Below, in pieces: positions 560 to 51,498 of a stretch of 57,417 nt of DNA. The first letter of the stretch is position 1; the number at the start of each line of letters is the position of its first letter. Source of the DNA: Acidobacteriota bacterium (GTDB taxonomy: Bacteria > Acidobacteriota > Terriglobia > Acidiferrales > UBA7541). Position numbers and translations under genes: made by a program. The stretch is taken from positions 1 to 57,417 of the forward strand of contig QHYR01000035.1 in assembly GCA_003223315.1 (NCBI GenBank), read 5' to 3'. A model generated the notes under the pieces. It was not told the DNA's origin. It was given only the letters and a program-made list of their open reading frames with translations, and did no database searches.

Positions 560-3500
560 TCAAGCTGCGTGGCTCGCGCTGGAGCGGGCTTGTTCCCAAT
601 TCACGGAAACAAGCTTGGAGACGCCGGGCTCCTGCATGGTCACGCCGTAAAGGACGGAAGCCATCTCCATGGTGCGCCGGTTGTGCGTCACCACGATGAA
701 CTGGGCATCGGCGCTCATCTCCGCCAACATCTGAGCGAAGCGGCCGACATTGGTCTCGTCCAGAGGCGCATCGACCTCATCCAGGATGCAAAACGGGCTG
801 GGCTGGTAGCGGAACACGGCGATCAACAGAGCGAGCGCCGCGAGCGCCTTTTCACCGCCGGAAAGCAGGAGCACGTTTTGCAGACGCTTCCCAGGCGGCT
901 GCGTAGCGATATCAATTCCCGCCTCTCCGGAGCTGTCGGGCTCAGAGAGGCGCATCTGTCCGGTGCCGCCCCCGAAGAGCGTTTGGAACGCTGCTGCGAA
1001 ATGCGAGTTGATGATGGCAAACGCTTCTTCAAATTTCTGACGGGAAATCTGGTCCAGTTCACCGATGGTCTGTTGGGTATCGGCAATGGATTGCAGCAGA
1101 TCGGCCCGTTCGCGCTCGAGGAAGCTGAAGCGCTGTTCACATTCGTTGTATTCTTCGAGGGCCATCATGTTCACCGGACCCATAGCCTCGGCGCGCGACT
1201 TCAAGTCTTGATACTGCACCTCAGAGGCCGCCAGATCATCCCCTTCGAGCAGCGCGTCTTGCTCGGCCATCAGGTCTTCGGGGTTGGCGTTGAGTTCGTT
1301 CAGACACGCGGCGCGGAGATGCTCTCGCTCGGCATCGTTGCGAGCGCGTTCGACCTCCTGGCGACTGCGATCTTCCCGAAGCTCGCTAAGAGTTTGCCTA
1401 CCGCCTCGGAGCGCATTGTCGACTTCGCTCGTGCGCAGGCGGACTTGATTCCATTCGCGCTCCAGATCGGCTTTTTGCCTTTCGCGGTGCTCGCGTTCGG
1501 TGCGCAGCGATTCCATCTGCAGGCGTTGCTCTTGGCTCCGGATGACGAGATCGGCTTCCTCAGCCTGGATCGTTGCTTGCTGCGCGGAAAGGGAAGATAA
1601 CCGCGCGACAAGCTCCTCACGTTCCTGTCTGATGCGCATCGAAATGGCCGTGGCGCCGGAAAGCCGCTCGGTCATGGTTGCCTGTTCGGCACGCTTGACA
1701 GCAACCTCGTCATGATGGGCCTGCGCCGACAGGCGGACCTCGCTGATGAGCGCGGTAGCTTCGGCCATATCGCATTCAGCTGCTTCGCGCCCTTTCAGGA
1801 TGGCCTCGCGTTCCACGATGGCGTGCTCGGCTTTCTGTTTGGCGGCGTGAGCGTCGCGCCGAAGGTGTTGGACATCAGACTGGCAGGCCGCCAATTCTGT
1901 ACTGAGCCGTGCCAATTCGGCGCGCGCCTGATCTCGTTCCAGGGTCGCAGCGACAACTTTCTTCCCAGCCTCGACACGCTCCAGGGTCATCTCCTCGAGA
2001 GATCGTTCCGCTTGCTGGCGTTCCGATTCCAGCCGTTCGGCGGCGGATTGCAATTCGGCCAGGGTGCCTTCCAGGCGTGAAGCTTCGGCGTCCAGCGCAC
2101 GCAGCTCACGTTTCGTAGCCAAAGGACCGGCTTCGGTCGGGCGGCCGCCTGTGACGGCGCGCCCGTGATAGCAGGTTCCATCCGGAGTCAGAAAAATGTA
2201 CGAGGGATTCTCGCGCGCCAGCCGCTCTGCGACTTCGGGCTCTTCCACAAGGAAGGCAGAGCGGAGCCGCGGCAAAAACTGCTTTGCCGCCGGGCCGAGG
2301 GGATTCCGAAATTCGACCAAACGGTCCAGGCGCGATACGCCGGATTCCTGGGGAAAAGGGGCAACAACCTCCTGTTCGCCGAGATCCAAGTTGCGCAGCG
2401 AATCGACGAAGAAGGTGGCACGACCGCCGAATTCCTCACGCAAGAGGGCGATGCCGGCACGTGCATGGTCGAAGGTTTCCACGACCACGTATTCGAGCTC
2501 GTCCCGGAGAAACTGTTCTACGGCGGTTTCGTATTGAGGCTCCACCTCGGCATAGTCGGCGAGCAAACCGACGGCCCGGAAATTCCGAGCCGCTCCCTGG
2601 CCATTGGCAGCGAACAGCTTTTGCACGGTTTCCGTGCTGTAGGAACGGTCACTCAGGACCTGTCCAAGCGCGTGGCGGCGAGCGCGCACTGCGGCAAGCG
2701 AATCGCGAAGGGCGTCACAGCGCGAGGCCACCTCGGCCTGATCGCCACGATAATTTGCGAGGCGTTGCTGTGCATCTGCCACGGAGCGCTCGAGAAGGCG
2801 GGCCCTCTCGGTTGCGCCTTGCCAGCGCAGGTCAGCCGCTTGCGAGCCCTCCCGGTAATGTAACGATTCTTCCAATAGAGCCTGCTCGGATTTTTCCACC
2901 CTTTCGAGCGCACCCGAATGATGCGCCAGCAACTGCTCGGCTTGTGCCTGCGCGTCCTGAATTCGAGCGAGGGCTTGATCGAACTCCTGGATTCGGCGTC
3001 GTGATTCCGCAATACGCGCCTCGGCAGAATGGCTGATCGCCGACAACTCTGAGGAGCGGGCCGCAAGTTCGCCCACGACGGCCTCCCATCGCGCGGCCTC
3101 CTCCTGCAGGCGCGCGACGATCGCATCCTGGGCCGCGACGCGCGATTCGACGTGCGCCAATTGTGCGGCGGCTTGTTCGCGCTCACTCGCCAATTGGCGC
3201 CCACGCTCAGCGAGTTCTTCCTGGCGCTGACGGTTGAACAGGATACGGTTTTCTGCGCGGTCCAGCTCCAGCGCAGCCTGGCCGATGAGGTTTTGATTCT
3301 GACGCAATTCGGCATCCAGTTCATAGACGCGACGGTCCAGCCGCTCCTGCTCCGCTTCCAGCTCCGCGAGAGATTGGGACTGCTTCGTTTCCATTTCGGT
3401 GAGTTCCGCAAGTCGCAGGGCGAGTCGGTCGGTCTCGAGCTCCAGCCGGCGCGCCTTGCTCGCGAGCACTATGCGAAGCAGGGTCCGCATCTGCTCGCGA

Positions 3501-4354
3501 ACCTCGACATATCGACGCGCTTTAGACGCCTGGCGCTTGAGCGATGCCAGCTGTTTCTCGACTTCCACAAAGATATCGTTGACGCGCGAGAGATTGACCT
3601 TGGAGGACTCGAGCTTGGCCTCGGCAAGGCGCTTTTTGGTTTTGTATTTCGTAATTCCGGCGGCTTCGTCGATGATCGCGCGGCGATCAGAGGGCTTGGA
3701 ACTCAGAACCTGTCCGATGCGTCCCTGTTCGATGATGGCGTACGAATCCGGCCCGAGGCCAATACCCATGAAGAGTTCCTGTATATCGCGCAGCCGAGCA
3801 GCGCGGCCATTGATGAGATAGTCGCTTTGGCCCGAGCGGTACAGCCGGCGGCCAACTACGACTTCACCGGGCCGTGCCGCAGGTCTTTGAGCCGCGCGCG
3901 GCTTTCTGGAGGTTTTATCGCCGGCAAAAGCGGTGGGTCCACTTTCGATCTCTACCGGGGTGGTTTCGGCGGATTCCGCCGCCTCAGCGAAGGGGGGCAA
4001 CCCTTCGCCTGCGTCAGGGGCAATCTCGCCGGGACTCGTGGCTGCTTGCGATTCGCCGAGTACGCGCCGCGCCGCCTCTGCCAATTCGGTGTCGACGAGA
4101 GTTAAGGTGACCTCAGCCAAACCCATAGGAGGCCGCTTCGCTGTTCCATTGAAGATGCAGTCAGCCATTCGCTCTGCGCGAAGCGTCTTATGGCTTTGCT
4201 CCCCCAGGACCCAGGAAACGGCATCGACAATATTCGATTTGCCGCATCCGTTCGGCCCGATGATGCAGCTCAGCCCGGTGCCGCTAAAGGTCAGGTGCGT
4301 TTTTTCGCAAAACGACTTAAAGCCAACCAGTTCGACTTTGCGGAGTTTGAGCAA
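560..4354 (-). CDS. smc: Chromosome segregation protein SMC
   Basis: 1264 aa; Walker A IIGPNGCGKSNIVDAVSWVLGEQ, signature LLSGGEKALAALALL, Walker B FCILDEVDAPLDETNV, long coiled coils and hinge. Confidence 0.97.
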   Translation of the reverse strand: MLKLRKVELVGFKSFCEKTHLTFSGTGLSCIIGPNGCGKSNIVDAVSWVLGEQSHKTLRAERMADCIFNGTAKRPPMGLAEVTLTLVDTELAEAARRVLGESQAATSPGEIAPDAGEGLPPFAEAAESAETTPVEIESGPTAFAGDKTSRKPRAAQRPAARPGEVVVGRRLYRSGQSDYLINGRAARLRDIQELFMGIGLGPDSYAIIEQGRIGQVLSSKPSDRRAIIDEAAGITKYKTKKRLAEAKLESSKVNLSRVNDIFVEVEKQLASLKRQASKARRYVEVREQMRTLLRIVLASKARRLELETDRLALRLAELTEMETKQSQSLAELEAEQERLDRRVYELDAELRQNQNLIGQAALELDRAENRILFNRQRQEELAERGRQLASEREQAAAQLAHVESRVAAQDAIVARLQEEAARWEAVVGELAARSSELSAISHSAEARIAESRRRIQEFDQALARIQDAQAQAEQLLAHHSGALERVEKSEQALLEESLHYREGSQAADLRWQGATERARLLERSVADAQQRLANYRGDQAEVASRCDALRDSLAAVRARRHALGQVLSDRSYSTETVQKLFAANGQGAARNFRAVGLLADYAEVEPQYETAVEQFLRDELEYVVVETFDHARAGIALLREEFGGRATFFVDSLRNLDLGEQEVVAPFPQESGVSRLDRLVEFRNPLGPAAKQFLPRLRSAFLVEEPEVAERLARENPSYIFLTPDGTCYHGRAVTGGRPTEAGPLATKRELRALDAEASRLEGTLAELQSAAERLESERQQAERSLEEMTLERVEAGKKVVAATLERDQARAELARLSTELAACQSDVQHLRRDAHAAKQKAEHAIVEREAILKGREAAECDMAEATALISEVRLSAQAHHDEVAVKRAEQATMTERLSGATAISMRIRQEREELVARLSSLSAQQATIQAEEADLVIRSQEQRLQMESLRTEREHRERQKADLEREWNQVRLRTSEVDNALRGGRQTLSELREDRSRQEVERARNDAEREHLRAACLNELNANPEDLMAEQDALLEGDDLAASEVQYQDLKSRAEAMGPVNMMALEEYNECEQRFSFLERERADLLQSIADTQQTIGELDQISRQKFEEAFAIINSHFAAAFQTLFGGGTGQMRLSEPDSSGEAGIDIATQPPGKRLQNVLLLSGGEKALAALALLIAVFRYQPSPFCILDEVDAPLDETNVGRFAQMLAEMSADAQFIVVTHNRRTMEMASVLYGVTMQEPGVSKLVSVNWEQARSSASHAA

Positions 4355-4712
4355 GGGATCCCTTAAGTTCCGCCACGCCCCGCCAAAGCAACGCCGCTTG
4401 GGCGGATACGTGTTCGGTTTCCTCGAGCGGAGGGGATGCGCGACGACAACTTTGGCGGGGCGTTTAGCAGTGACCCAGCCGTCCGGCGCTTGGATCGGCG
4501 GTTACACGCCGCACCATAACACATGGTCCAAGGAGTGTAAAGCATTGCTCGCAGCAGCTTTCTAAAACGAAATGAACGTTCGATATCTCATCGCTGAGCC
4601 GTGTTCAAGCGAATTTCAACTCGCTTGGGCGCGTTGCTGCCGTTCTAGCGCTCGGCTAGAATGCTAGCTCATCGCGAGGGCGGATGCCCTTGCACGTTTC
4701 TCAGCATATCAT

Positions 4713-6191
4713 TTGAGTAACGGGCACCCGGCCGGAGGGATGCCGCAACGATCAATGGGCGATATCGTTTTCCAAAATACGCTCGGAGGACAGAAGCAAG
4801 ACTTTGTGCCGCTGCATCCGGGCCAGGTGAGAATGTATACATGCGGCCCCACCGTCTACGACTTCGCCCATATTGGCAATTTTCGGACGTTCGTTTTCCA
4901 GGATATCCTGCGTCGCTTTCTGCGCTCGCGCGGTTTCGAGGTCATGCAGGTCACCAATTTCACCGATGTGGACGATCGCATCATCGCCAAAGCCGCGGAG
5001 GCAAAGGTCGATATACGCGATTACACGGCCAAATATATCGAGGCTTTTCTTGCGGATCAGCGGGTATTAGGTCTCAAAAAACCGGAATACATGGTGCGGG
5101 CCACCGACCATATCGAGGATATGGTTCAGCTCATCGAGCGGCTCACGGCCAAGGGCTTTACCTATGTGAGCGAGGGATCGATCTACTTTCGCATATCGCA
5201 ATTTCGCGATTACGGCAAGCTGACCCATGTGGATATGGCAGGCATCAAGGCCGGGGCGCGTGTGGATGTAGATCGCTATGACAAGGCTGATGCGCGCGAT
5301 TTCGCGCTCTGGAAAGCTCCCAAGCCGGGGGAGTTTTTCTGGGAAACGCGCATCGGTCCAGGCCGACCAGGCTGGCACATTGAATGCTCGACCATGGCCA
5401 TGAAGTATTTGGGAGAAACGATCGACATTCATTCCGGCGGCGTGGACCTTGCCTTTCCGCACCACGAAAATGAGATCGCGCAGTCTGAGGCCGCGACGGG
5501 GAAACCCTTTGTGCGCTATTGGCTTCATGCCGAACACCTCCTGGTCGACTCTCAGAAGATGTCCAAATCGCTGGGCAACTTCTATACCCTGCGCGATTTG
5601 CTCGAAAAAGGAAACAAGCCATCCACCTTACGCTTTTTGCTGGCGTCGGTCCCTTACCGGCGTCAACTCAATTTCACGCAAGAAGGTCTGCAGCAAGCGG
5701 CAAGCTCCGTCGAACGCTTGCGGAATTTTGCCATGCGCCTCAAGACCGCTAAGTTTCCGGAGGGCACTTCCGCGCTTAGCGAGAGCGCAGAGCGGGCCCG
5801 CGAGAATTTTGAAGCCGGGCTGGAAGACGATTTGAACACGGCCCAGGCTTTGGCTGCGGTGTTCGATCTGATCCGGGAAGCCAATGCGGTCATGGATCGC
5901 GGTGAATTTCGGCAAGGCGATGTAGCACCGGTGTGCAAGGCTCTGGAGTTATTTGATGCTATTTTTGCCGTTCTCCAGGATGATGACGACGAGAAACTCC
6001 GCTCCGTCGGTATAGGCGCGCGCGGCAGCGTCCCGAGCAACGAAGAAATCGAAGAGCGCGTCGCGGCGCGACAACTAGCACGCAAGACGCGTGATTTTGC
6101 AAAGGCCGATCGCATCCGCCAGGAGTTGGCCGACCAGGGTATTATTCTCGAAGACAGCAAAGATGGGATCGTTCGCTGGAAGCGCAAGTAG
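4713..6191 (+). CDS. cysS: Cysteine--tRNA ligase
   Basis: 492 aa; MYTCGPTVYDFAHIGNFRTFVFQDILRR, HIECSTMAMKYLG, KMSKSLGNF. Start is TTG at 4713 or ATG near 4755. Confidence 0.97.
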   Translation: MSNGHPAGGMPQRSMGDIVFQNTLGGQKQDFVPLHPGQVRMYTCGPTVYDFAHIGNFRTFVFQDILRRFLRSRGFEVMQVTNFTDVDDRIIAKAAEAKVDIRDYTAKYIEAFLADQRVLGLKKPEYMVRATDHIEDMVQLIERLTAKGFTYVSEGSIYFRISQFRDYGKLTHVDMAGIKAGARVDVDRYDKADARDFALWKAPKPGEFFWETRIGPGRPGWHIECSTMAMKYLGETIDIHSGGVDLAFPHHENEIAQSEAATGKPFVRYWLHAEHLLVDSQKMSKSLGNFYTLRDLLEKGNKPSTLRFLLASVPYRRQLNFTQEGLQQAASSVERLRNFAMRLKTAKFPEGTSALSESAERARENFEAGLEDDLNTAQALAAVFDLIREANAVMDRGEFRQGDVAPVCKALELFDAIFAVLQDDDDEKLRSVGIGARGSVPSNEEIEERVAARQLARKTRDFAKADRIRQELADQGIILEDSKDGIVRWKRK

Positions 6192-19512: not shown

Positions 19513-21408
19513 CTATTGGCTAAAAGGGACGTCCACGGAAAACTGCGTTCGAACCGGCTCTCCTGCCAGGCGCGGCACCGTCGTTTTCCACTTGCGGGCC
19601 GCCTGCATGGCGGACTCGGAAAAGCCATAGGAATCAGGCCTTACGCGCGAGTGCGCCTCGACGATGGCTCCTCGCTGATCCACAGTCACAGAGAGCATGG
19701 CCAACCCGTTGTCCAGGCCCACCTGACGAGCCTGCAAGGGAAACTCCGGCCACGAAAAGTGAACCCACTGGACTTTGGGCGGATCCAGCACGCCGCAAGC
19801 GGCGAAGACGCCGGACCGCACGTCGGTTTTCGAATCAGGCACGCCGACGCCGCATCCGATCGCCGGCCACGGCGTCATCCCGCGCAGCGCGATGGGGATC
19901 GCCGACGAGACGTAGGCCGCCGCATCCTTGGCTCGCGGACCGCTTCCTTGGGCGATCTGCTGAAATTCCAGCCGAACGCGCAATTTCAATCCGGCAGCGT
20001 CTTTCGCCGCAACCGCTTGATGAAAGTGGGACACAGCGGCGTTGAATTGCGCATCGGGCGTTAATTTCTCAACGCTCGCAGGCTGCTCCTCGCTCGCGTT
20101 CACACCCGCCGGAGCGGTCGCGAGTGCGTTGGATACCGGCTCGGCTGCATTGGACGCCGCCGGAAGCGCTGCCTGGGCGTGGAAATGACGCCTGGCGCGA
20201 TTTGCTTCCAGCGCGATGCCGGCCAGCAGCGTCAACCCGATCGCGGCGACGGCGATTCCGCGTTGCCACAGTGGCGCGTTCACCAGCCTGGCTAAGAGAA
20301 GTTCCGCAGGGCCGCGGGATGAGGTCTTCGGCACATCGACCGGCGCCGCGATTGTCGCCGCAATGGGCACGGACGCTGGCGAGATCGCCTTGGGCGCCTC
20401 CGCCACGCCGCTCGACGCCGCGTTTCGAGCAGGCAACTTCCTCAGTGCGATCGTCTGTGCGGCTGGCGCGATTTGGGTTCTCGCGCGGCTTGCATGGCTG
20501 GCCACGGTTTGGAGTGCGTACTCGTGTGCAGCGGTGCCCGCCGCTTCGGCCGGTGGTTGCCCAGGCTTATTCAGGTGGAGTGCAGCCCAGGCGGATTTCA
20601 GTTCGAGAAGCAGCTGCTCCATGCTCTCATAGCGGGCAGCGTCATCCTTGGCCAGAGTTCTCCGTGAAATTACATCCAGTTGGAGTGGACACTCGGGGAG
20701 CAACTGGCGAAGAGGCACCGGGTCATCTTGCAAGATGCTGAGCAGCAGAGCCGCATTATTTTCTCCCTTAAAGGGGCGGCGGTAGGTCAAGAGCTCGTAT
20801 AGAACAACACCAAGCGACCAAATATCGGAACGCGCATCGGCGCGGTTTCCACGGATTTGCTGGGGCGACATGTAGCCTAACGTGCCCATCATGGTCCCGG
20901 TTTGCGTCTTAGGGTTCTCGGCCAGCCGGGCGATGCCGAAGTCCACCACCTTGACCACGCCCTCGACGGTTACGACGATATTCGCCGGCTTGATGTCCCG
21001 ATGAATCACGCCGCGCCGGTGCGCGTATTGCAGAGCGCGGCAGGTTTGCACCAGGTATCCCACTTTTTGCGCCAAGGGAACCGCGGCGCGCCGAGAGATC
21101 AGGGCATCCAGGCTTTCCCCCTCGAGGTACTCCATGGCGATGAAGGGAACTCCGTCTGCCTCGCCCAATTCGTAGATCGTAACGATATTCGGATGCTGGA
21201 AAGCACCCGCCGCTTTGGCTTCGCGGCGAAAGCGCTCCACCAGGCCCGTATCGCCAACCACAGACGCTGTAATCGTTTTGAGCGCGATGAGCCGCCCGAT
21301 CAGTGAGTCTTGCGCTTTGAATACAACACCCATGGCTCCGCGGCCTAACTCGCTCAGGATTTCGTAGCGACCAATCTTTTTCACACCGGCACTCCTGGCA
21401 ACTGCCAC
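19513..21408 (-). CDS. Transmembrane Ser/Thr protein kinase with C-terminal TonB-family domain
   Basis: Kinase: GRYEILSELGRGAMGVVFKAQD, IALKTI, HRDIKPANIVV, DFGIARL. TM: GIAVAAIGLTLLAGIALEA. C-term: GLAMLSVTVDQRGAIVEAHSRVRPDSYGFSESAMQAARKWKTTVPRLAGEPVRTQFSVDVPF resembles the TonB-family C-terminal domain. Confidence 0.9.
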   Translation of the reverse strand: MAVARSAGVKKIGRYEILSELGRGAMGVVFKAQDSLIGRLIALKTITASVVGDTGLVERFRREAKAAGAFQHPNIVTIYELGEADGVPFIAMEYLEGESLDALISRRAAVPLAQKVGYLVQTCRALQYAHRRGVIHRDIKPANIVVTVEGVVKVVDFGIARLAENPKTQTGTMMGTLGYMSPQQIRGNRADARSDIWSLGVVLYELLTYRRPFKGENNAALLLSILQDDPVPLRQLLPECPLQLDVISRRTLAKDDAARYESMEQLLLELKSAWAALHLNKPGQPPAEAAGTAAHEYALQTVASHASRARTQIAPAAQTIALRKLPARNAASSGVAEAPKAISPASVPIAATIAAPVDVPKTSSRGPAELLLARLVNAPLWQRGIAVAAIGLTLLAGIALEANRARRHFHAQAALPAASNAAEPVSNALATAPAGVNASEEQPASVEKLTPDAQFNAAVSHFHQAVAAKDAAGLKLRVRLEFQQIAQGSGPRAKDAAAYVSSAIPIALRGMTPWPAIGCGVGVPDSKTDVRSGVFAACGVLDPPKVQWVHFSWPEFPLQARQVGLDNGLAMLSVTVDQRGAIVEAHSRVRPDSYGFSESAMQAARKWKTTVPRLAGEPVRTQFSVDVPFSQ

Positions 21409-36045: not shown

Positions 36046-39000
36046 GTGACTGTGATCAGTAGAGAACGGCTCAGGGAGCTTATCGTCAGGATCCTTCTGA
36101 TCGCCAGCTTGGCTGGCGCTTCTTCTTGTTTGTGGGCGCAATCCTCAACGACGGGAGCGTTGCGGGGCACGGTCATGGATCCAGGGGGCAAAGTCGTTCC
36201 GGGTGTGCTCGTCACTCTCTTCAGCACCACGACCAGGCAAGCGCAAATCACGATGACGGACGGGAATGGCCTGTATGGGTTCTCGTTGCTTCCCCCCGGG
36301 ACCTATGACGTGATCTTTTCTGCGGAAGGATTCAAGACCTCCGCGGCGATGTCCGTGACTGTAAATGTCACGGAGTCCCCTGAGCTGGATGCCCAGCTCG
36401 AGACCGGAGCGCCGGAAGAACGGGTTACCTGCCAGTGCCAGATCAGCCAGGCGGCAACGTCCTCGAACGGCACGTTGGTGGACAGCAAGACTCTTACGGC
36501 GGTCCCGCTAACGACGCGCAACTTCACACAGGTGATGTCGATGTCTTCAGGCTCCGCCGCCAGTGTTAATAATGCCGGGTTGCTCGGAGCTGGCTCCCAG
36601 GACGTAAATGTGAACGGCAGTACGGCGGTAGGTCTCTATACTGTAGATGGCGCGGCTTCCGCAAGCACAGTCCCCAACCCTGACACGATTACAGAATTTA
36701 AGATTCAGACTTCGCAATACGACGCCGGATATGGCACCAAGGTTCCCAACACCAATCTGGTAACCCAATCGGGTCAAAATGACTTTCACGGCGATGCTTG
36801 GGAATTCGTGCGCAACGACATCTTCAATGCCAATTCCTTTTTCCAGAATGCAAACGGGCGACCCAAAGCGACCTTGAAGCAGAACCAGTTCGGCGGCACG
36901 CTGGGCGGACCCATCAAGAAAGATAAACTGTTCTTCTTTGGGTCCTACCAGGGAACCCGGCAAATAGACGGCCTGGATAACACCGCCTCCTTAGATACGG
37001 TTATTCTTCCTCTCCTCACGAACGATCGCTCGGCGGCCACCATCGGTTCGCAATTCTGTCCAGCGAATAAGCCTGCGAATGTGCGGCCTTCCTACTTGAC
37101 CTTTGCGGGAGGAGTCGGTGCGGACCCGGCTGGTGTTGGGGAGGTGGCCTGCGACGGCCACAACATCAATCCCGTGGCCCTGAAGATACTGCAGTTGAAG
37201 CTGCCCGATGGCAGCTATCTGATCCCCACGCCTCAAACCATCCTGTCCAGCGGCGTGAATGCGGGTCTCGGGCTTTCCGCTTTTAGTCTTAAGTCCTCCT
37301 ATGATGAAAACCAATATCTGGCAAACCTTTCCTACGTCATTTCCAAAAATCACACGCTCACCGGCCGTCTCTACTACGCCACAGCTCACTTGTACAGAGC
37401 CTTCGGCTCCTTTTTTCTGCGTGCCCCGGAGACTCCGCCCACTCCGGGCTTTCCGGTGATACAGGACGACACGAACTTGATCACCAGCGCGCAACTCAGT
37501 TCGGTGTTGACACCGAACATTGCCAATGAAGCGCGCATGACTTTCACGGTCAATCGTTCCGACCCGACGCTTCCCGGCCTGCCTTCCGCGGCTTCCGTAG
37601 GCATGAAGCCGGCCAATCCGTTGGCTCCGCTGTTGCCGGATATCATCATGCGGGGACCGCTGGGAGACTTTCAGGCGGGGAATGTCCTCAGTGATTTTCT
37701 GAACTACAGCAAAACGTTTACCTGGGCGGACACTCTCTCCTGGACTCACGGCAGGCATACCACTCGTACTGGGGTCTTTGCTTTAACAGAGCCTTTGGAA
37801 TCGTCCAACATCAGTCTGGCTCGAGGAAGGCTTGCCTTTCAAAACTTCACTGATTTCTTGCTGGGACTGAGCGCGGCCCAGAACGGCAGTCCTCAGGGAC
37901 TCAGCAATATTCAATCCATTGAAGCCAATGAAGGCACGGGGCCAACGGGTAACGTCATACTTTTGCTGCGGTCCAACCATCTGGCCGCGTTTGTGGAGGA
38001 CGACATTAAAGTCAGTGGGCGCCTTACCCTCAATCTGGGTCTGCGCTGGGAATACCTGCCATCTTCGTTTAGCCGAGCCCACGACCTCGGCAATGCTTGG
38101 ACCTCGCTCCTCCAGACTGTGCCCATCCCGCCTGCTTCCGGCACGTATGCTGGAATCACCGTGCCGCCCGGCTACGATCCGAACCAAATCAATCCCTACA
38201 CGGGCCAACCCTTCGGGCCGCCTCCTCCCGGGGTGGTCGTACGACCCAACAATGGTTTCTACGAGAATGGCGCTCCGTGGGATACTTTCGCTCCGCGCTT
38301 CAGCTTTGCATGGCAACCCGGAAGCAAGCAAAGCCGCCTGGCCGTGCGCGGCGGCTATGGATGGTTTTATCAACCTCTCAGCGATAGGGGAAATGCGACG
38401 GGTACTCCATCGGAGAATATTCAGCCCTTCGCTCAACTTATCGGTAGTGGGGGAGCCAGCAATGGCGCCTCCACACTGCAAAATCCGTTCCCGCCGACGA
38501 CGCTCGGCTTCACGCTGCGAACCCCCACCTCACATCTGGATGACCGCACCATCGGACCCCACTTCGAAAATCCGAAGCTGCAGCAATGGAACCTCAACGT
38601 GCAGTATGCGCTCGCTAACAATTTAACTCTCGACCTCGGTTATGTTGGATCGCACGGCAACAATCTCTTTCTGCTGCATGGTTCGAACCAGCCCTTCCTG
38701 GCGACATCCGGCCAGCCGGTGAACTGCGGGCTGCCCAATACTGCGACGGGTTTGGGTGTGACTCCCGCTATCTTCGCCACGCTGGGTGTCGATGCATCGG
38801 GCTGCGTCACCACGAATACCTCCACCAACGCCTACCTGCGCGTCCCCATCGTCGGCGAGACGCCGACGGGTTTGCTCGCGCATCAGTATCTCGGCGGCTC
38901 CTGGTACCACAGCGCGCAGGCCACGCTGCGGCAGCAGGTGACCCACCGTCTCAGTTTTCAATTCGCTTATACCTTTTCCAAAGCTTTGGCCAACACCACG

Positions 39001-44653: not shown

Positions 44654-44670
44654 CTCATTGCAAAGAAAAG

Positions 44671-44713
44671 TGGGCCCCCTAGGATTTGAACCTAGGACCA
44701 ACGGATTGTGAGT
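44671..44713 (-). repeat. tRNA 3'-half fragment, direct repeat of the tRNA(CAU) at 56949-57022 (candidate att site)
   Basis: TGGGCCC-c-CTAGGATTTGAACCTAGGACCAACGGATT-g-TGAGT matches 56949-56991 with 2 mismatches, including a 29-nt exact core (44679-44707 = 56957-56985). The tRNA 5' half is absent. Confidence 0.9.
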
Positions 44714-44942
44714 GCGTGCTTAGCGGTATGCACGAACCGGTTCTCCGCCATCAATTTGGACTCCAACTCGTTTCCTCCTGAAGAATTACATCTTTGATGT
44801 TGGATTCGTTTACCAAGACCCGAATTATCCACAGGTGGCTACATCACCGGCCAGGAGACAAGGGAACTCCAGAGCACGTGATCATCCTCCAGGAATCAAC
44901 TGTTTGTATGTCAGGAACTTAAAGAGCAGACCGTTCAACCTC

Positions 44943-47831
44943 ATGGAAACGCTGCACCATATAATCGATTCTAGAGAAGTCTCTCCAGGTAAGAGTTTTC
45001 TGAGGCGAATCGGCAAATACGAGATCCTCCGCGAGCTGGGTCGCGGCGCAATGGGTGTGGTCTATCTAGCGCGCGATCCGTCGATTGGCCGGCTCGTGGC
45101 AATCAAGACCATCACCTCAGCGGTTGTTTCAGACTCAGATCATCTTGATCGTTTCCGGCGCGAGGCTCAGGCGGCCGGCGGTCTGCACCACCCCAACATC
45201 GTGACCGTCTATGAGATGGGTACGGAGGACGGAGTGCCGTATCTGGTCATGGAATACCTGGACGGCGAAGGCCTGGATCGTTTGATTGAACGGCGCACGG
45301 CCATTCCGTTTCTCGAGCAATTCAGTTATATCGTTCAGCTGTGCCGCGCGCTGCAGCATGCGCACGAAAATCGTGTAGTTCACCGCGACGTCAAGCCCGC
45401 GAATATTGTGGTGAAGAGGGATGGAACGATTCGCGTAGTGGACTTTGGAATCGCGCGTCTGGTGGACACCACACGCACCCAAACTGGTGTGATGATGGGC
45501 ACGATCAGCTACATGTCTCCGCAACAGCTTAACGGCCAGCGAGCGGATGCGCGCTCCGACATCTACGCAACTGGCGTGGTCGCTTACGAGGTGATTGGAG
45601 GAAAAAGACCTTTCGCCGGCGAGAATCATGCCGCGCTGATTGTTGGCATCCTATCCCGCACCCCTGAGCCGCTGGCCCAGATCGCCCCAGGCTGCCCACC
45701 CGGCCTGATCGCGATTATCGAACGGGCGATGCACAAAGAGGATGTGCAGCGCTATCAGAGCATGGGCATGATGCTGGCCGAGCTCGAGCTAGTCTGGAAG
45801 CAAGAACAGGAACGCGGCGTCAATCAACTGATGGAGCAAGCGCGGAATCTTCTCGAAAACGAAAACTATTCGGAAGCGCGCAAGCAACTAGATCAAATCT
45901 TGCGGATCAACCGGGAAAGCGCGACCGCAGCGGTACTGCTGGAAGAACTTCGCTCCGCTCGCAACGGATTGGTGCTGCAAGAGGAAGTGGCTGAACTCAT
46001 CACGCGCGGGAGAAAATCGCTCGAGCAGAACCTCTTCAGTGACGCCATCGCCAACGCCAATTCCGCTCTCCACCTTGACCCAAAGTCCAAAAGCGCGCGC
46101 GATCTGCTGTCGGACGCGCGAAAGATCGAGGCCGCCGCAAATCGAGCGTCGGATGAACTTTTGGAGGCCACATTACAAAGATCAGCCAATGTCCGCGCGG
46201 CGAGTTCGCCTGAGAGTTCCGCAGAATTTGCCGAGGCTGGACCGGTCACGGCTACACACCGCAGCAGCCCCGTCCGCGCAGACTCCCGCACGGGATCACA
46301 GAGACGGATGTTTACCCGAACGATTGTGGCGCAGAAGCCTGCGAGCCAACGAAACAAGCTTGTTTTTGGATTCGCTGCCGTAATAATCGGTTCAGTATTG
46401 CTGGCCGCGCTCGTTTATGGATGGAGCTGGCGAAAGAATTCGACACTCTCTTTAGGCAACAGTTCGCCAATACCATTGAGGTCGAGCACGCCGGTACTCC
46501 CGAGTATTGAAGAGCAGCAGCACACCCTGATCGCGCAAGCACATCAGGCCGCGGATGCGAATGACTATTCGACGGCTCTGCAGAAGCTTGACCAGGCCCA
46601 ACAGCTCAAGGGTCCGCTCGATACATTGGTCGTGGATTTGCGCCATAAATTCGCAATTGAACAGCAGGACCTAGGCGCGCGCGATGTGGCACGCCAAGAA
46701 CGGGACCTGTGGACCCAAGGATCAAGAGCCCTGGCGCAAAATCGCTTCGACCAAGCCGAGCAAGCATTCAAACAGATACTCGCGCTCCCGGAAGGAGGCC
46801 GGCGCCGAGCGGAGGCGCAGCAGCAGCTCGATGAGGTGCTGCCTCGAAGACGGGAAGAAGAACAGGTCTTTGCGGAAGCACAGCAGCTTGCGGGGAAAGT
46901 TGATGCCGGCAGCTTGCAGCAAGCCGCAAAGCTATTCGACTCGGTAATCGCCGCGAACGGTCCGCGACATGATCAAGCGCGGCAGTTGCAGGCCGAGCTG
47001 CGAGACAAATTGACGCCAATCAACTCCAAAAGCCGCGCTGACCAGAGCGCAGCGGATGGCTCCGAGCGCACGCACTTCTCGCAGCTGGAAGACCAATTTC
47101 GCCAGGCACAACAGCGCGGTGACGATTCGAGCCGGCAACTGCTTCGCGATTTGCTGCCGCAATTCCGCTCCATCGCCGATGCGGGAGGTCCCCTGAGCAA
47201 TAGCGCGCGAAATTACACGGACAATCTCGTTCCCGCCGCGCTTAAGGACCTGGACTTGAGGGCCGCTAAGGCCAGCGATGCCGCGGACGCCGCGCGGTTT
47301 AATGATGCTACATCGCACTTTCGGCGAGCGGTTGACGCACATGATGCGACCGCCCTGCGTTCCGCGGTGTTACAGGAATTTCAGGCTATCGCTACCGCGG
47401 GCGGTCCTAGAGCGGCCGAGGCCAACCGCTACGTGTCTTCGCTAATTCCCGCCGCGATCCACGATGCGATGCCCTGGCCGGTAATTGGGTGCCCAGCGAG
47501 CGCTCTGGGGCTCAGCCCGACCATCAAACCGGGTGATCTGGTTGCCTGCGGGATGCTGGATAGCCCGAAGTTGAAGTGGGTTCAATTTGCTTGGCCGGAA
47601 TTTCCGGCTGGCGCAAGCGCAGCCGGGCAGTCTTCCGGTCTGGCGATGCTGTCCATAGCCGTGGATGAAGATGGAAACGTAACGGATGTGCGGCCGCGCG
47701 GGATTAAGGATTCTTATGGGTTTGTCGAAGCTGCCGTCTTAGCTGCCCGCCGCTGGAAAACAAATCCTCCGCGCGCTCAGGGCAAAAGCGTGAAAACATC
47801 GTTCGCTGTGGACGTTTCCTTCACGCCCTGA
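44943..47831 (+). CDS. Transmembrane Ser/Thr protein kinase with TPR-like repeats and C-terminal TonB-family domain
   Basis: IGKYEILRELGRGAMGVVYLARD, VAIKTITSAV, HRDVKPANIVV, DFGIARL; TM KLVFGFAAVIIGSVLLAALVYGWSW; C-term GLAMLSIAVDEDGNVTDVRPRGIKDSYGFVEAAVLAARRWKTNPPRAQGKSVKTSFAVDVSF. Preferred start 44943 (ORF track gives 44835). Confidence 0.9.
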   Translation: METLHHIIDSREVSPGKSFLRRIGKYEILRELGRGAMGVVYLARDPSIGRLVAIKTITSAVVSDSDHLDRFRREAQAAGGLHHPNIVTVYEMGTEDGVPYLVMEYLDGEGLDRLIERRTAIPFLEQFSYIVQLCRALQHAHENRVVHRDVKPANIVVKRDGTIRVVDFGIARLVDTTRTQTGVMMGTISYMSPQQLNGQRADARSDIYATGVVAYEVIGGKRPFAGENHAALIVGILSRTPEPLAQIAPGCPPGLIAIIERAMHKEDVQRYQSMGMMLAELELVWKQEQERGVNQLMEQARNLLENENYSEARKQLDQILRINRESATAAVLLEELRSARNGLVLQEEVAELITRGRKSLEQNLFSDAIANANSALHLDPKSKSARDLLSDARKIEAAANRASDELLEATLQRSANVRAASSPESSAEFAEAGPVTATHRSSPVRADSRTGSQRRMFTRTIVAQKPASQRNKLVFGFAAVIIGSVLLAALVYGWSWRKNSTLSLGNSSPIPLRSSTPVLPSIEEQQHTLIAQAHQAADANDYSTALQKLDQAQQLKGPLDTLVVDLRHKFAIEQQDLGARDVARQERDLWTQGSRALAQNRFDQAEQAFKQILALPEGGRRRAEAQQQLDEVLPRRREEEQVFAEAQQLAGKVDAGSLQQAAKLFDSVIAANGPRHDQARQLQAELRDKLTPINSKSRADQSAADGSERTHFSQLEDQFRQAQQRGDDSSRQLLRDLLPQFRSIADAGGPLSNSARNYTDNLVPAALKDLDLRAAKASDAADAARFNDATSHFRRAVDAHDATALRSAVLQEFQAIATAGGPRAAEANRYVSSLIPAAIHDAMPWPVIGCPASALGLSPTIKPGDLVACGMLDSPKLKWVQFAWPEFPAGASAAGQSSGLAMLSIAVDEDGNVTDVRPRGIKDSYGFVEAAVLAARRWKTNPPRAQGKSVKTSFAVDVSFTP

Positions 47832-47865: not shown

Positions 47866-50800
47866 CTAAAAGGTGAATCTAAGCGCCGCTTGCAGCCGGC
47901 GGCTGCTGGTATTCATGTAGTTTGTGCTCAGGAAGAGAGCGCCGGCTGCCGGATCAAACGCGTCCAGAGAATTTTCCGGAATCAGGCCGCTCACACGCGA
48001 GGGTGTCGGCGAGGACGCACTGCCGCCGCCGAACGCGAGCGCCGGCACCGCCTGAGCTGCAGCGCTAAACACATTGCCGATAGGAACTCCGGGATTGGCT
48101 TTGTTCAGCAGGTCATAAGCCTCTAAACGGAACTGCAGCACCGCTCGTTCGCCTAACTTAAAGTCTTTGATGACGGAAAGATCCAGGTTGATGATGTGCG
48201 GCCCGACGAGGATATTGCGTCCAGCGTTTCCAGCCACAAACGTTTCATTGGTGTTGCCCATGGGGACCGTGAATGGCTGGGAGGCGGTAACCCCGAGCGG
48301 GTTCTGGACAAAGTGAGCGGTTGCCGGGTCAATAGGATTACCAGCCAGATCTTTGTACCCTTTGGAGACGTTGATGCAGCTCGGATCCCTAATTATAGCC
48401 ACGGAATTGAGCGGAGCTGCCGGATTGCCAATGCTCGGGCGATCGTTAGTCAAGATGCCGTCGCCGTTGGCGTCAATGCACGCGGCATAGCTGTTCAGTG
48501 GGCTGAAAGGCTGGCCGCTCTGGCCAGACAAAATACCGCCAAGAATCCAGCCGCCAAGCACGGCCTGCCGCGCACCCGAGGACGGACCAGGCAGCGACCA
48601 CAGGGCGCTGAGGGAACCGCGATGCCGTCGGTCAAAGGATGAATTACCGCGTTCTCCGGCGTGAGCATTGGTGGAATCTTGGGCGAAAGGCGTACTGATC
48701 TCCACAAAGCCTGCTTCCTGACGAACTTGTTTGAAGCCGCGGACGCGGCGCAGCTCCGGACCAAAAATTTCGCTAGAGGTGTCAATCATGTGGCTCAATG
48801 TATACGAACCCGTAAAGGCCAGACCGCGAAAAAATCCAGGACGAGTGTAACGCTTGGTAGCCGAGACCTGCAGGCTGTGATAGCTCGAACGGGCACCGCT
48901 GTTGACAACAGTGATTTCTTGATGATTGGGATCGAGACGAGGTTTGGCCACCGCGCAGGGACCCGGCTGAGCCACGCAAATGTTTTCGATTCGCCACCCC
49001 TGTCGCGGATTAACATCCAACCGTTCGTAAAGCCTTGTGCTCTCGTTCCCGGTGTAGGTCACTTGGAAGAGAAAATCCCTGCCAATCTGACGCGCAAGGC
49101 TAAGACCGAAATTCTGCGCCAGCGGCTGGCGGAGGTTCGGAGAAATGCCCACCTGGTTGGTGCAATCTGCATAGGTGGGACCCGAACCATTTGTGGGCAC
49201 TAAGCCATCACAATTGTTGAAATGAGTCAGAACATCGCTCGGATTGAAGGGCGGCTGCGGATACACGTTTGTGGGTTGACCAGCAACGAAGGGTGAAATC
49301 TGGCCGGACTGCCAAGCTGCGAGCGGAATATTGAAAGGTGTCGAGTTGTAATAAATGCCGTAACCGCCGCGCAAGGCCATTCGTTGGCCGAGGCTTAAGG
49401 CAAACCCCGCACGCGGGCCGAAATCCATGTTATCTGGTTCGATTTTTGAACCAAAGCTTGGATTAAGCTCGGCAATGCGGTTGGCCGGCTGCCCGAAATT
49501 TTCGTAGCGTAGCCCGATGGTGAAAGTCAGCCATGGTTTTGCACGAATATCGTCTTGCACAAAATAGAAGTGGCTGAACAGTCGAATCGGAAGTACCTCG
49601 CCGCCTTGGCCTCCAAAATTGGGAAATGTTTGAAACGCAAACAAACGGTCATTGTCGACGAAAGATTGAAAACCCGGCTTTCCAGCCGAGCCGAAATAAA
49701 AGTACTCGCCGAGGTCGCCGTTGATGTCGCTAATGCCGCTGAGCGTTTGCACTAGATTCACGCCAAATTTCACGCTGTGGCGTCCAGCGGATATCGAGAA
49801 GTTGTCTTGCAACTGATAGAGGTTGCTTCGGATTTGTCTCGGTCGGGAATCAAGACCCAAGGTGAAAACACTTCCCGCCGCCGGGAAGTCGGACAGGAAT
49901 GGGTTCGTGGCCCCAGTGGTGCTTCCCGGGGCTGTGCCCAACGCAAAATCGTCGAGCACGGTGATGGCCGGCAGCGTTTCTCTCGAAGACTCGCTTTGAT
50001 TCAAGGCTCCAGCCTGGGACGCAATGCGGCTGTAGGAAAGGCGCAGCTCGTGGAGCGCATGAGGCCAGGCATGAGTCCAAAATGCTCCAACATTTTGAGT
50101 GCGTTGCGCCAGAACGTCATTGAAGCCAGGCAGCAGTCCGGCATCGAAGAAAGCCACCTCCACGGGCGAAGCGCCGACGCTGCGAGGGGTCCGGACGTCG
50201 TCCAACAAGTAGCGCGCAGAGAAATCGTCTTTCTGGCTGAGCCGACGATCCAAGCGGAGAGACAGCTGCTGGTCGTGCAAGTCAAAGGCCCCGGCATTGG
50301 GCACCAGATACGTGCCGAAACTAACATTCTGAAGATTGAGCGGGACACTTCCCGTCGTGCACGGATTGCTGGCGGGAAGGCCTGGAATAAACCCGACGCA
50401 AGGCGCCGAGCTGACGGGAAGTGAACTCACTGTCGGGTTGTCAAGATACGCCAAGAGCGTTCTCGTTGGGGTCATGCGTGATAGCGTATTCAGGCCACCC
50501 ACTGTGGGCAGAGTGGCGATCTGGGGGTACAAGGCAGTCAGATCATTATGCATTCGGTCGTTTTGGTAGGATCCGAAGAACCACGTCGAGTCCCGCCGAA
50601 TCGGGCCGCCAAGGCTCATTCCAAGAACGTTCTCATTCAAGGGTACAGGAGCTGCCAGGCCGGCTGCGCGTTCCGTGAGGCTGGTGGCGTTGAGCGCGTC
50701 GCGCTGTGCAAACCAGAAAGCGCTGCCATGCCATTCATTGCCCCCGCGCTGGGTAATGATGTTAACGACTCCGCCGGAATGGCGGCCAAACTCGGCTTTG

Positions 50801-51498
50801 TACAGGCTGGTCAGAATGCGATATTCAGCGACAAGGTCGGTGTTGGTGAATTGCGTGGCAGCGCCGCCGAATAACGGTTCATTGTTGTCCACGGAATCGA
50901 TGACGAAATTGACGTCGCGGCCCCGCGAGCCATTTACCGCAAAAGGCACCAGTGTGCTGGCAAAACTGAAAGTGCGCGAGCTGATCACGCTGGGAGCCAA
51001 GAGGGCCAGATTGTTTACGTCACGCGTCAGAATGGGAAGCTCTCTGATTTGTCTTCCCTCGAACTCGCTGCTTTGCGCGGGTGTGTCTGTTTCCGTCAGG
51101 TCAGTGACGGCAGCATTCACTTCCACTTTTTCGCTTCCCACTTGGGAAACGCTAAGGGTCACGTCCTCGAGATGCACGCCTTCCGCGACCCCAACGCGCA
51201 CGCCGGGAACCTTTGCGGAGTTGAAACCTGCGGCGAGAATAGTTAGATCGTACAGCCCTGGCGGGATCTCCGAGGCCTGGTAGCGTCCTTCATCGTCCGT
51301 ACTAATCGCGCGGATCTGTCCGGTCGACGTGTTGACGACTTGAATGAGCGCGGCGGGTACGGCATCGCCCCGCGGATCGTGAACTTGCCCGATAATGCCG
51401 CCTCCCACACTCTGGGCGCTGCTGCTTCCGGAACCAAAGACACTCAGCCAGAAAATTAGCAGTAGTCGTCGACGCATGGCATGCCCCCTCGAAACCAC
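47866..51498 (-). CDS. TonB-dependent receptor, Oar-like, N-terminal carboxypeptidase-regulatory-like domain
   Basis: 1210 aa; GGGIIGQVHDPRGDAVPAALIQVVNTSTGQIRAISTDDEGRYQASEIPPGLYDLTI, FVIDSVDNNEPLFGGAATQFTNTDLVAEYRILTSLYKAEFGRHSGGVVNIITQRG, C-terminal RRLQAALRFTF. Confidence 0.93.
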   Translation of the reverse strand: MVSRGHAMRRRLLLIFWLSVFGSGSSSAQSVGGGIIGQVHDPRGDAVPAALIQVVNTSTGQIRAISTDDEGRYQASEIPPGLYDLTILAAGFNSAKVPGVRVGVAEGVHLEDVTLSVSQVGSEKVEVNAAVTDLTETDTPAQSSEFEGRQIRELPILTRDVNNLALLAPSVISSRTFSFASTLVPFAVNGSRGRDVNFVIDSVDNNEPLFGGAATQFTNTDLVAEYRILTSLYKAEFGRHSGGVVNIITQRGGNEWHGSAFWFAQRDALNATSLTERAAGLAAPVPLNENVLGMSLGGPIRRDSTWFFGSYQNDRMHNDLTALYPQIATLPTVGGLNTLSRMTPTRTLLAYLDNPTVSSLPVSSAPCVGFIPGLPASNPCTTGSVPLNLQNVSFGTYLVPNAGAFDLHDQQLSLRLDRRLSQKDDFSARYLLDDVRTPRSVGASPVEVAFFDAGLLPGFNDVLAQRTQNVGAFWTHAWPHALHELRLSYSRIASQAGALNQSESSRETLPAITVLDDFALGTAPGSTTGATNPFLSDFPAAGSVFTLGLDSRPRQIRSNLYQLQDNFSISAGRHSVKFGVNLVQTLSGISDINGDLGEYFYFGSAGKPGFQSFVDNDRLFAFQTFPNFGGQGGEVLPIRLFSHFYFVQDDIRAKPWLTFTIGLRYENFGQPANRIAELNPSFGSKIEPDNMDFGPRAGFALSLGQRMALRGGYGIYYNSTPFNIPLAAWQSGQISPFVAGQPTNVYPQPPFNPSDVLTHFNNCDGLVPTNGSGPTYADCTNQVGISPNLRQPLAQNFGLSLARQIGRDFLFQVTYTGNESTRLYERLDVNPRQGWRIENICVAQPGPCAVAKPRLDPNHQEITVVNSGARSSYHSLQVSATKRYTRPGFFRGLAFTGSYTLSHMIDTSSEIFGPELRRVRGFKQVRQEAGFVEISTPFAQDSTNAHAGERGNSSFDRRHRGSLSALWSLPGPSSGARQAVLGGWILGGILSGQSGQPFSPLNSYAACIDANGDGILTNDRPSIGNPAAPLNSVAIIRDPSCINVSKGYKDLAGNPIDPATAHFVQNPLGVTASQPFTVPMGNTNETFVAGNAGRNILVGPHIINLDLSVIKDFKLGERAVLQFRLEAYDLLNKANPGVPIGNVFSAAAQAVPALAFGGGSASSPTPSRVSGLIPENSLDAFDPAAGALFLSTNYMNTSSRRLQAALRFTF

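Follow-up and report, generated by a model that had tools for sequence, protein, structure and literature searches.

Can the cytoplasmic domain of a Ser/Thr kinase be coupled to an outer-membrane receptor by a TonB-type domain carried on the same chain? The question is raised by a locus on contig QHYR01000035.1 of an Acidobacteriota bacterium (assembly GCA_003223315.1; the window, as used here, is the whole analysed stretch of 57 417 nucleotides), in which the gene of a receptor-like kinase ending in a TonB-family domain (K) converges on that of a TonB-dependent receptor. The signals of known TonB-dependent receptors are relayed by anti-sigma factors. The original prediction, made from the letters of the window, held that this layout could let K sense or gate the transporter. 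The conserved neighbourhood of the two genes in distant relatives, described below, suggests that in this soil bacterium a signal passes from receptor to kinase across both membranes.

Domain architecture and fold of K

K is encoded on the forward strand from the ATG at 44943 to the stop at 47831 (962 residues). A tRNA-remnant-like sequence that was not called by ARAGORN lies directly upstream of the gene (44670–44760). The N-terminal part of K is a Hanks-type Ser/Thr kinase domain (residues 26–271, 45018–45755; Pfam PF00069, E = 1.6e-51), in which the VAIK lysine, HRD and DFG catalytic residues are all intact in the translation. The match to the PASTA-kinase model NF033483 is confined to residues 24–313 and reaches 318 bits, compared with the required >450, and the search of Pfam and NCBIfam profiles revealed no PASTA domain in K, which is therefore not a PASTA kinase. 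On the cytoplasmic side, a weak TPR-like segment (residues 296–332, 45828–45938) resembles TPR_2 and TPR_16; both lie below the Pfam cut-off (TPR_2 at 21.6 bits), and the cytoplasmic repeats that had been read from the translation are therefore only suggestive.

A single strong hydrophobic segment, the transmembrane helix (residues 473–491, 46359–46415), separates the kinase from the TonB domain and puts the membrane between them; given a cytoplasmic kinase, the TonB domain faces outwards, which argues against a cytoplasmic C-terminus. An AF2 model of the whole periplasmic part displays a stalk of ∼12 helices (46506–47465), of TPR/BamD type according to Foldseek, followed by the TonB tip, with an overall pTM of only 0.35. 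Between the stalk and the tip lies a segment with two cysteines (47472–47606; PWPVIGC...LVACGMLDSPKLKWVQFAWPEFP). The expectation that this would be a conserved two-cysteine motif holds for K, its paralogue K2 and a protein from G003, to which the cysteines are confined; in the other members the segment reads W..P...G.LV....DGGLK and contains no cysteine.

The C-terminal domain (residues 885–961, 47595–47825) belongs to the TonB family by both profile and fold. PF03544 (E = 4.7e-9, 37 bits; cut-off 24.6) and TIGR01352 (E = 1.3e-8, 35 bits; cut-off 27.1) match above their curated cut-offs, and the AF2 model of the last 150 residues, built on a 9-sequence alignment, shows a helix–strand–strand–helix–strand arrangement (pLDDT 68.7, pTM 0.63). 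In a Foldseek comparison of the tip with the PDB, TonB or TolA C-terminal domains account for every one of the best 21 matches, with FoxA-bound TonB at the head (E = 1.2e-3, prob 1.00); a sequence-only comparison again finds TonB domains as the closest chains, weakly (E of 0.02 and up). These results confirm the predicted architecture of K, in which a Hanks-type kinase, one transmembrane helix and a periplasmic stalk of TPR-like helices share one chain with a genuine TonB C-terminal domain.

An energy-transducing TonB protein would carry an N-terminal transmembrane helix with the histidine of the SxxxH motif for ExbB/ExbD. The helix of K contains no histidine and no SxxxH motif, and the motif is likewise absent from the paired kinases (see below) that have a whole transmembrane helix. 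It is present in three of the five TonB/TolA-like proteins of the source genome and is a soft criterion, as two ordinary TonB-like proteins of that genome are without it too. The missing motif makes it more likely that K acts as a reader of the receptor, a sensor, rather than as an ExbBD-driven transducer.

The convergent receptor

The predicted neighbour is indeed an Oar-like TonB-dependent receptor of 1210 residues, encoded on the reverse strand at 47866–51498, 34 bp from K. Pfam identifies an N-terminal CarboxypepD_reg domain (51154–51396; PF13620, E = 1.6e-15), a weakly matching plug (50770–51090; PF07715, E = 0.02) and an OMP_b-brl_4 barrel, and no STN signalling domain. A candidate TonB box, EKVEVNA (51112–51132), was assigned from its position between the CarboxypepD_reg domain and the plug, from the consensus and from the clade alignment, in which a V-x-V-x-A-like stretch is kept at this site. 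The plug has RELPILTRDVNNL in place of the LPLNGR of the compared paralogues. No FecR/ECF sigma pair turned up among those window genes close to the receptor that were scanned. The window has another receptor, at 36046. The open reading frame at 563–4501 was considered as a receptor and rejected, as it encodes an SMC protein.

In the receptor tree, the window receptor falls into a clade with a support of 100/100, apart from 12 other receptors of the source genome; it is 42–63% identical to its clade orthologues, compared with ∼24% for other receptors. Phylum-wide sampling met this clade only here, and the clade is therefore rare.

Conservation of the gene pair

The source genome contains 53 matches to the OMP_b-brl_4 barrel, which, as some genes are hit in several pieces, correspond to 40-odd receptors; kinase matches number ∼14. 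With such numbers adjacency alone is unimpressive, and the question becomes whether it is conserved elsewhere. Orthologues were searched with the receptor and not the kinase as the query, which left the kinase neighbours a free outcome. A GTDB scan yielded nine receptor loci, and G026, G574, G580, G592 and G596 came from searches at class and family level; in the tree, every one of these receptors falls in the clade with 100/100 support. The immediate neighbour of the receptor is a TonB-tipped kinase or a truncated remnant of one in 11 of the 13 readable clade loci (those with the relevant flank present, two further loci that end at contig edges being left out), which span seven genera and two families. 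The neighbour, a kinase or a stalk with a TonB tip, is convergent in the window and in L077, L078, L075, L080, L081, L082, L083 and L096; since the contig ends ahead of the kinase domain in L075, L081, L082 and L096, the neighbour was counted there from the stalk and the tip. A tandem arrangement of kinase and receptor is found in L084 and L085, in which the tip is below Pfam detection and has a profile match of 93.6%. The L094 kinase lies two genes from its receptor, and in G053 (L079) the receptor is unlinked to a kinase, with a kinase–TonB_C protein, sister to that of L094, encoded on another contig. For G574, one of the contig-edge loci, a kinase-type tip occurs in a 239-residue open frame near the start of another contig. 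In L083, the receptor and kinase genes are both truncated at one junction (5781–6101), either by a deletion or by an assembly error. The adjacency of the genes, mostly convergent, is not in itself proof of contact and speaks against simple co-transcription at most loci.

From the counts of the source genome, a kinase neighbour is expected by chance for ∼0.7% of receptors, a rate at which 11 of 13 would have p ∼ 1e-22 on the assumption, which does not hold, that the loci are independent. As a control, the flanks of 16 other receptors of the source genome were inspected, and a kinase, without TonB_C, adjoins just one of them. Among 151 genomes of the class taken in a single draw, the tip model (A6; E below 1e-30) matched in six, the receptor clade was present in eight and both in five (hypergeometric 5e-7), with the model built partly from the genomes tested and the genomes themselves related. 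The abundance of receptor genes and the dependence of loci within a genus could be taken to mean that the adjacency of K and its receptor is mere chance, or inherited synteny without function. We regard this as highly improbable, given that the pairing has been kept over this range of genera and families while the genes beyond it change, that both convergent and tandem orientations occur and that the own-genome background is 1 in 16. The hypothesis of coupling thus passes the genomic test of a conserved pairing with a rare receptor clade; physical coupling and its direction are inferred.

Related kinases and other TonB_C proteins

An association with receptors across genomes, as the original prediction expected, holds for the orthologues of the window receptor and does not extend to every kinase–TonB_C protein. 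The paralogue K2 (19513–21408, reverse strand) combines a kinase domain, a transmembrane helix, the two-cysteine segment and TonB_C with a short stalk; it shares 45% identity with K across the C-terminal 210 residues and has a homologue in G003 (L048). No receptor lies next door to K2, to the G003 copy or to the copies in g12, so the TonB tip can serve without a receptor neighbour. The rule that every kinase–TonB_C protein adjoins a receptor is contradicted by K2, L048, L052, L055 and L056. The architecture is broader than receptor pairing and the fusion alone does not imply it. In the kinase tree, paired and unpaired kinases are not separated and all fall in a broader group, with L080 unplaced.

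Several relatives depart from the architecture of K. Two kinases with a K-like stalk (L045, 4122–6443; L046, 4381–6579) have no TonB_C. The L046 kinase, on contig C245, follows a different receptor at a distance of 247 bp and was discarded as support for the pairing, as it is without TonB_C and no receptor lies near the homologues of this kinase in G001, G003 and G034. A 1716-residue kinase of the K group in G015 (L053, 3466–8613) has a C-terminal end that resembles NTF2 in place of TonB_C. Two other proteins of the source genome carry TonB_C: one joins it to a transmembrane segment and a PilZ domain, a further cytoplasmic signalling domain, in one chain (L007, 1–1749, contig C193), and the other to a transmembrane helix and a pseudokinase-like domain with HGH for HRD and SDG for DFG (L058, 3184–4722, contig C129).

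The existence of kinase–TonB_C proteins without receptor neighbours, and of TonB_C ends on PilZ and pseudokinase proteins, would also suit a tip that binds some other target, such as peptidoglycan or another envelope protein, K then being an envelope-stress kinase and the receptor its regulatory target or a passenger. PASTA kinases, which bind muropeptides (PMC13147305), lend this some plausibility. The conserved partner, however, is one receptor clade and not any receptor or envelope gene, and we consider such a role for K quite unlikely.

Proposed mechanism and the wider module in relatives

We favour the interpretation that K and the convergent receptor are probably a dedicated pair that signals across the envelope, the receptor being the docking site of the TonB tip. 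The TonB box to which the TonB domain binds in known systems lies between the N-terminal domain and the plug of the receptor (PMC11658791). The Oar-like barrel would sense or transport something at the outer membrane, and the tip of the K stalk would dock on the TonB-box/plug region. The docked state may then alter K in its conformation or oligomeric state and thereby switch the cytoplasmic Ser/Thr kinase. Docking, an outside-to-inside direction, the activity of the kinase and its targets are all presumed in this scheme.

Most clade receptors have a giant lipoprotein-like gene beside them, encoding 1.1–2.7 thousand residues (L077, 4853–9601; L079, 3891–9857; L080, 4009–9753; L081, 3–8063; L085, 13754–18712). 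These genes are mostly without Pfam matches; He_PIG Ig-like repeats are found in L077. The lipoprotein is absent from the source genome and from G015, the receptor of which is nearest to that of the window, and both genomes keep the receptor–kinase pair, G015 as truncated genes. The lipoprotein bears on a scheme with the opposite direction, in which the kinase gates the receptor and phosphorylation or stalk movement would allow the tip to compete with or replace TonB, switching transport or export. The gene pairing and the tip fold also fit inside-out control of this kind, the source genome has ordinary TonB proteins to compete with, the Oar receptor of Myxococcus is a TonB-dependent exporter of a protease (PMC6434023), and most clade receptors have the lipoprotein gene next to them. 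Nevertheless, we found no precedent for such control, and two genomes keep the pair although the lipoprotein is missing from them; we therefore judge gating by the kinase to be unlikely.

In the favoured signalling pair, further components can be proposed from the relatives. In L084, L085 and L094, the gene ahead of the kinase encodes a PP2C phosphatase (scored by Pfam in L084 and L094, and assigned in L085 from the same sequence motif). On one contig of G564, the lipoprotein, receptor, kinase and PP2C genes lead to two FHA-DUF4123 genes, PAAR, VgrG, ClpV and TssF, and then to TssC, TssK and TssL. In G053, VgrG comes after the T6SS core, and then FHA genes, the lipoprotein and the receptor; in G014 a related giant kinase adjoins TssM and PP2C genes with no receptor. 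Acidobacterial T6SS clusters with FHA-DUF4123 fusion proteins are represented by L133 and L134 (G564) and L132 (G053). The sheath gene VipB was not found in the source genome (G000) or in G001, G003, G004, G015, G016 and G024. The linkage to T6SS, PP2C and FHA genes that marks a PpkA/PppA/Fha module is thus present in G564 and, in part, in G053 and G014, but not in the source genome. In the relatives, the PP2C encoded beside the kinase would reset phosphorylation and the FHA proteins would read it; in those of family f6, the module in or near the T6SS cluster would amount to a threonine-phosphorylation-type trigger. The simplest reading is that a PpkA-type kinase/PP2C/FHA trigger carries a receptor-docking tip in one lineage, while the family of the window keeps the pair without a T6SS. 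We put forward only tentatively the fuller proposal of a class of outer-membrane-to-cytoplasm signalling in which the TonB-type domain is no energy transducer but a receptor-state reader wired directly to a Ser/Thr kinase, and in which the receptor–kinase–PP2C–FHA module of the relatives, with its giant lipoprotein, triggers the T6SS.

Comparison with known systems

Our literature searches for kinase–TonB fusions or their pairing with receptors found no paper describing them; domain databases may list the architecture. The closest parallel in layout is FecA–FecR–FecI signalling (PMC11658791, PMC11637429), which likewise runs from an outer-membrane TonB-dependent receptor through a single-pass periplasm-spanning protein to the cytoplasm. 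Here, in contrast, the receptor carries CarboxypepD_reg, with no STN found, and the place of the anti-sigma factor in the membrane is taken by a Ser/Thr kinase tipped with a TonB-type domain. If our interpretation is correct, TonB-dependent receptors would have a second signalling route, through a TonB domain joined to a Ser/Thr kinase.

K shares a Hanks kinase, one transmembrane helix and an extracytoplasmic sensor part with the PknB/PknS-type receptor kinases (PMC13147305), but it has no PASTA domains and its TPR-like stalk ends in a TonB C-terminal domain. This would represent a periplasmic input for eukaryote-like kinases, the ligands of which are mostly unknown. The fold of that domain and its periplasmic location are those of the TonB energy transducer, from which K differs in its cytoplasmic kinase, in a helical stalk instead of a Pro-rich linker and in the absence of SxxxH from the transmembrane helix. 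The window receptor has the PF13620 N-terminal domain, plug and barrel of Myxococcus Oar (PMC6434023); the neighbours of the Oar gene are exbB/exbD, whereas that of the window receptor is a kinase. Such pairing could help to match the receptors of acidobacterial genomes, which number in the dozens, with their partners.

The relatives of family f6 resemble the T6SS PpkA–PppA–Fha system (PMC10482370) in having a membrane Ser/Thr kinase, PP2C and FHA beside T6SS genes. In the Pseudomonas pathway the signal is started by the outer-membrane protein TagQ (PMC10482370); in the relatives, a TonB-type tip and a TonB-dependent receptor replace TagQRST, and the source genome, which is without the T6SS sheath gene, keeps the kinase and receptor only. 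If the proposal holds, the outer-membrane event that triggers firing would become directly testable in the T6SS-bearing relatives.
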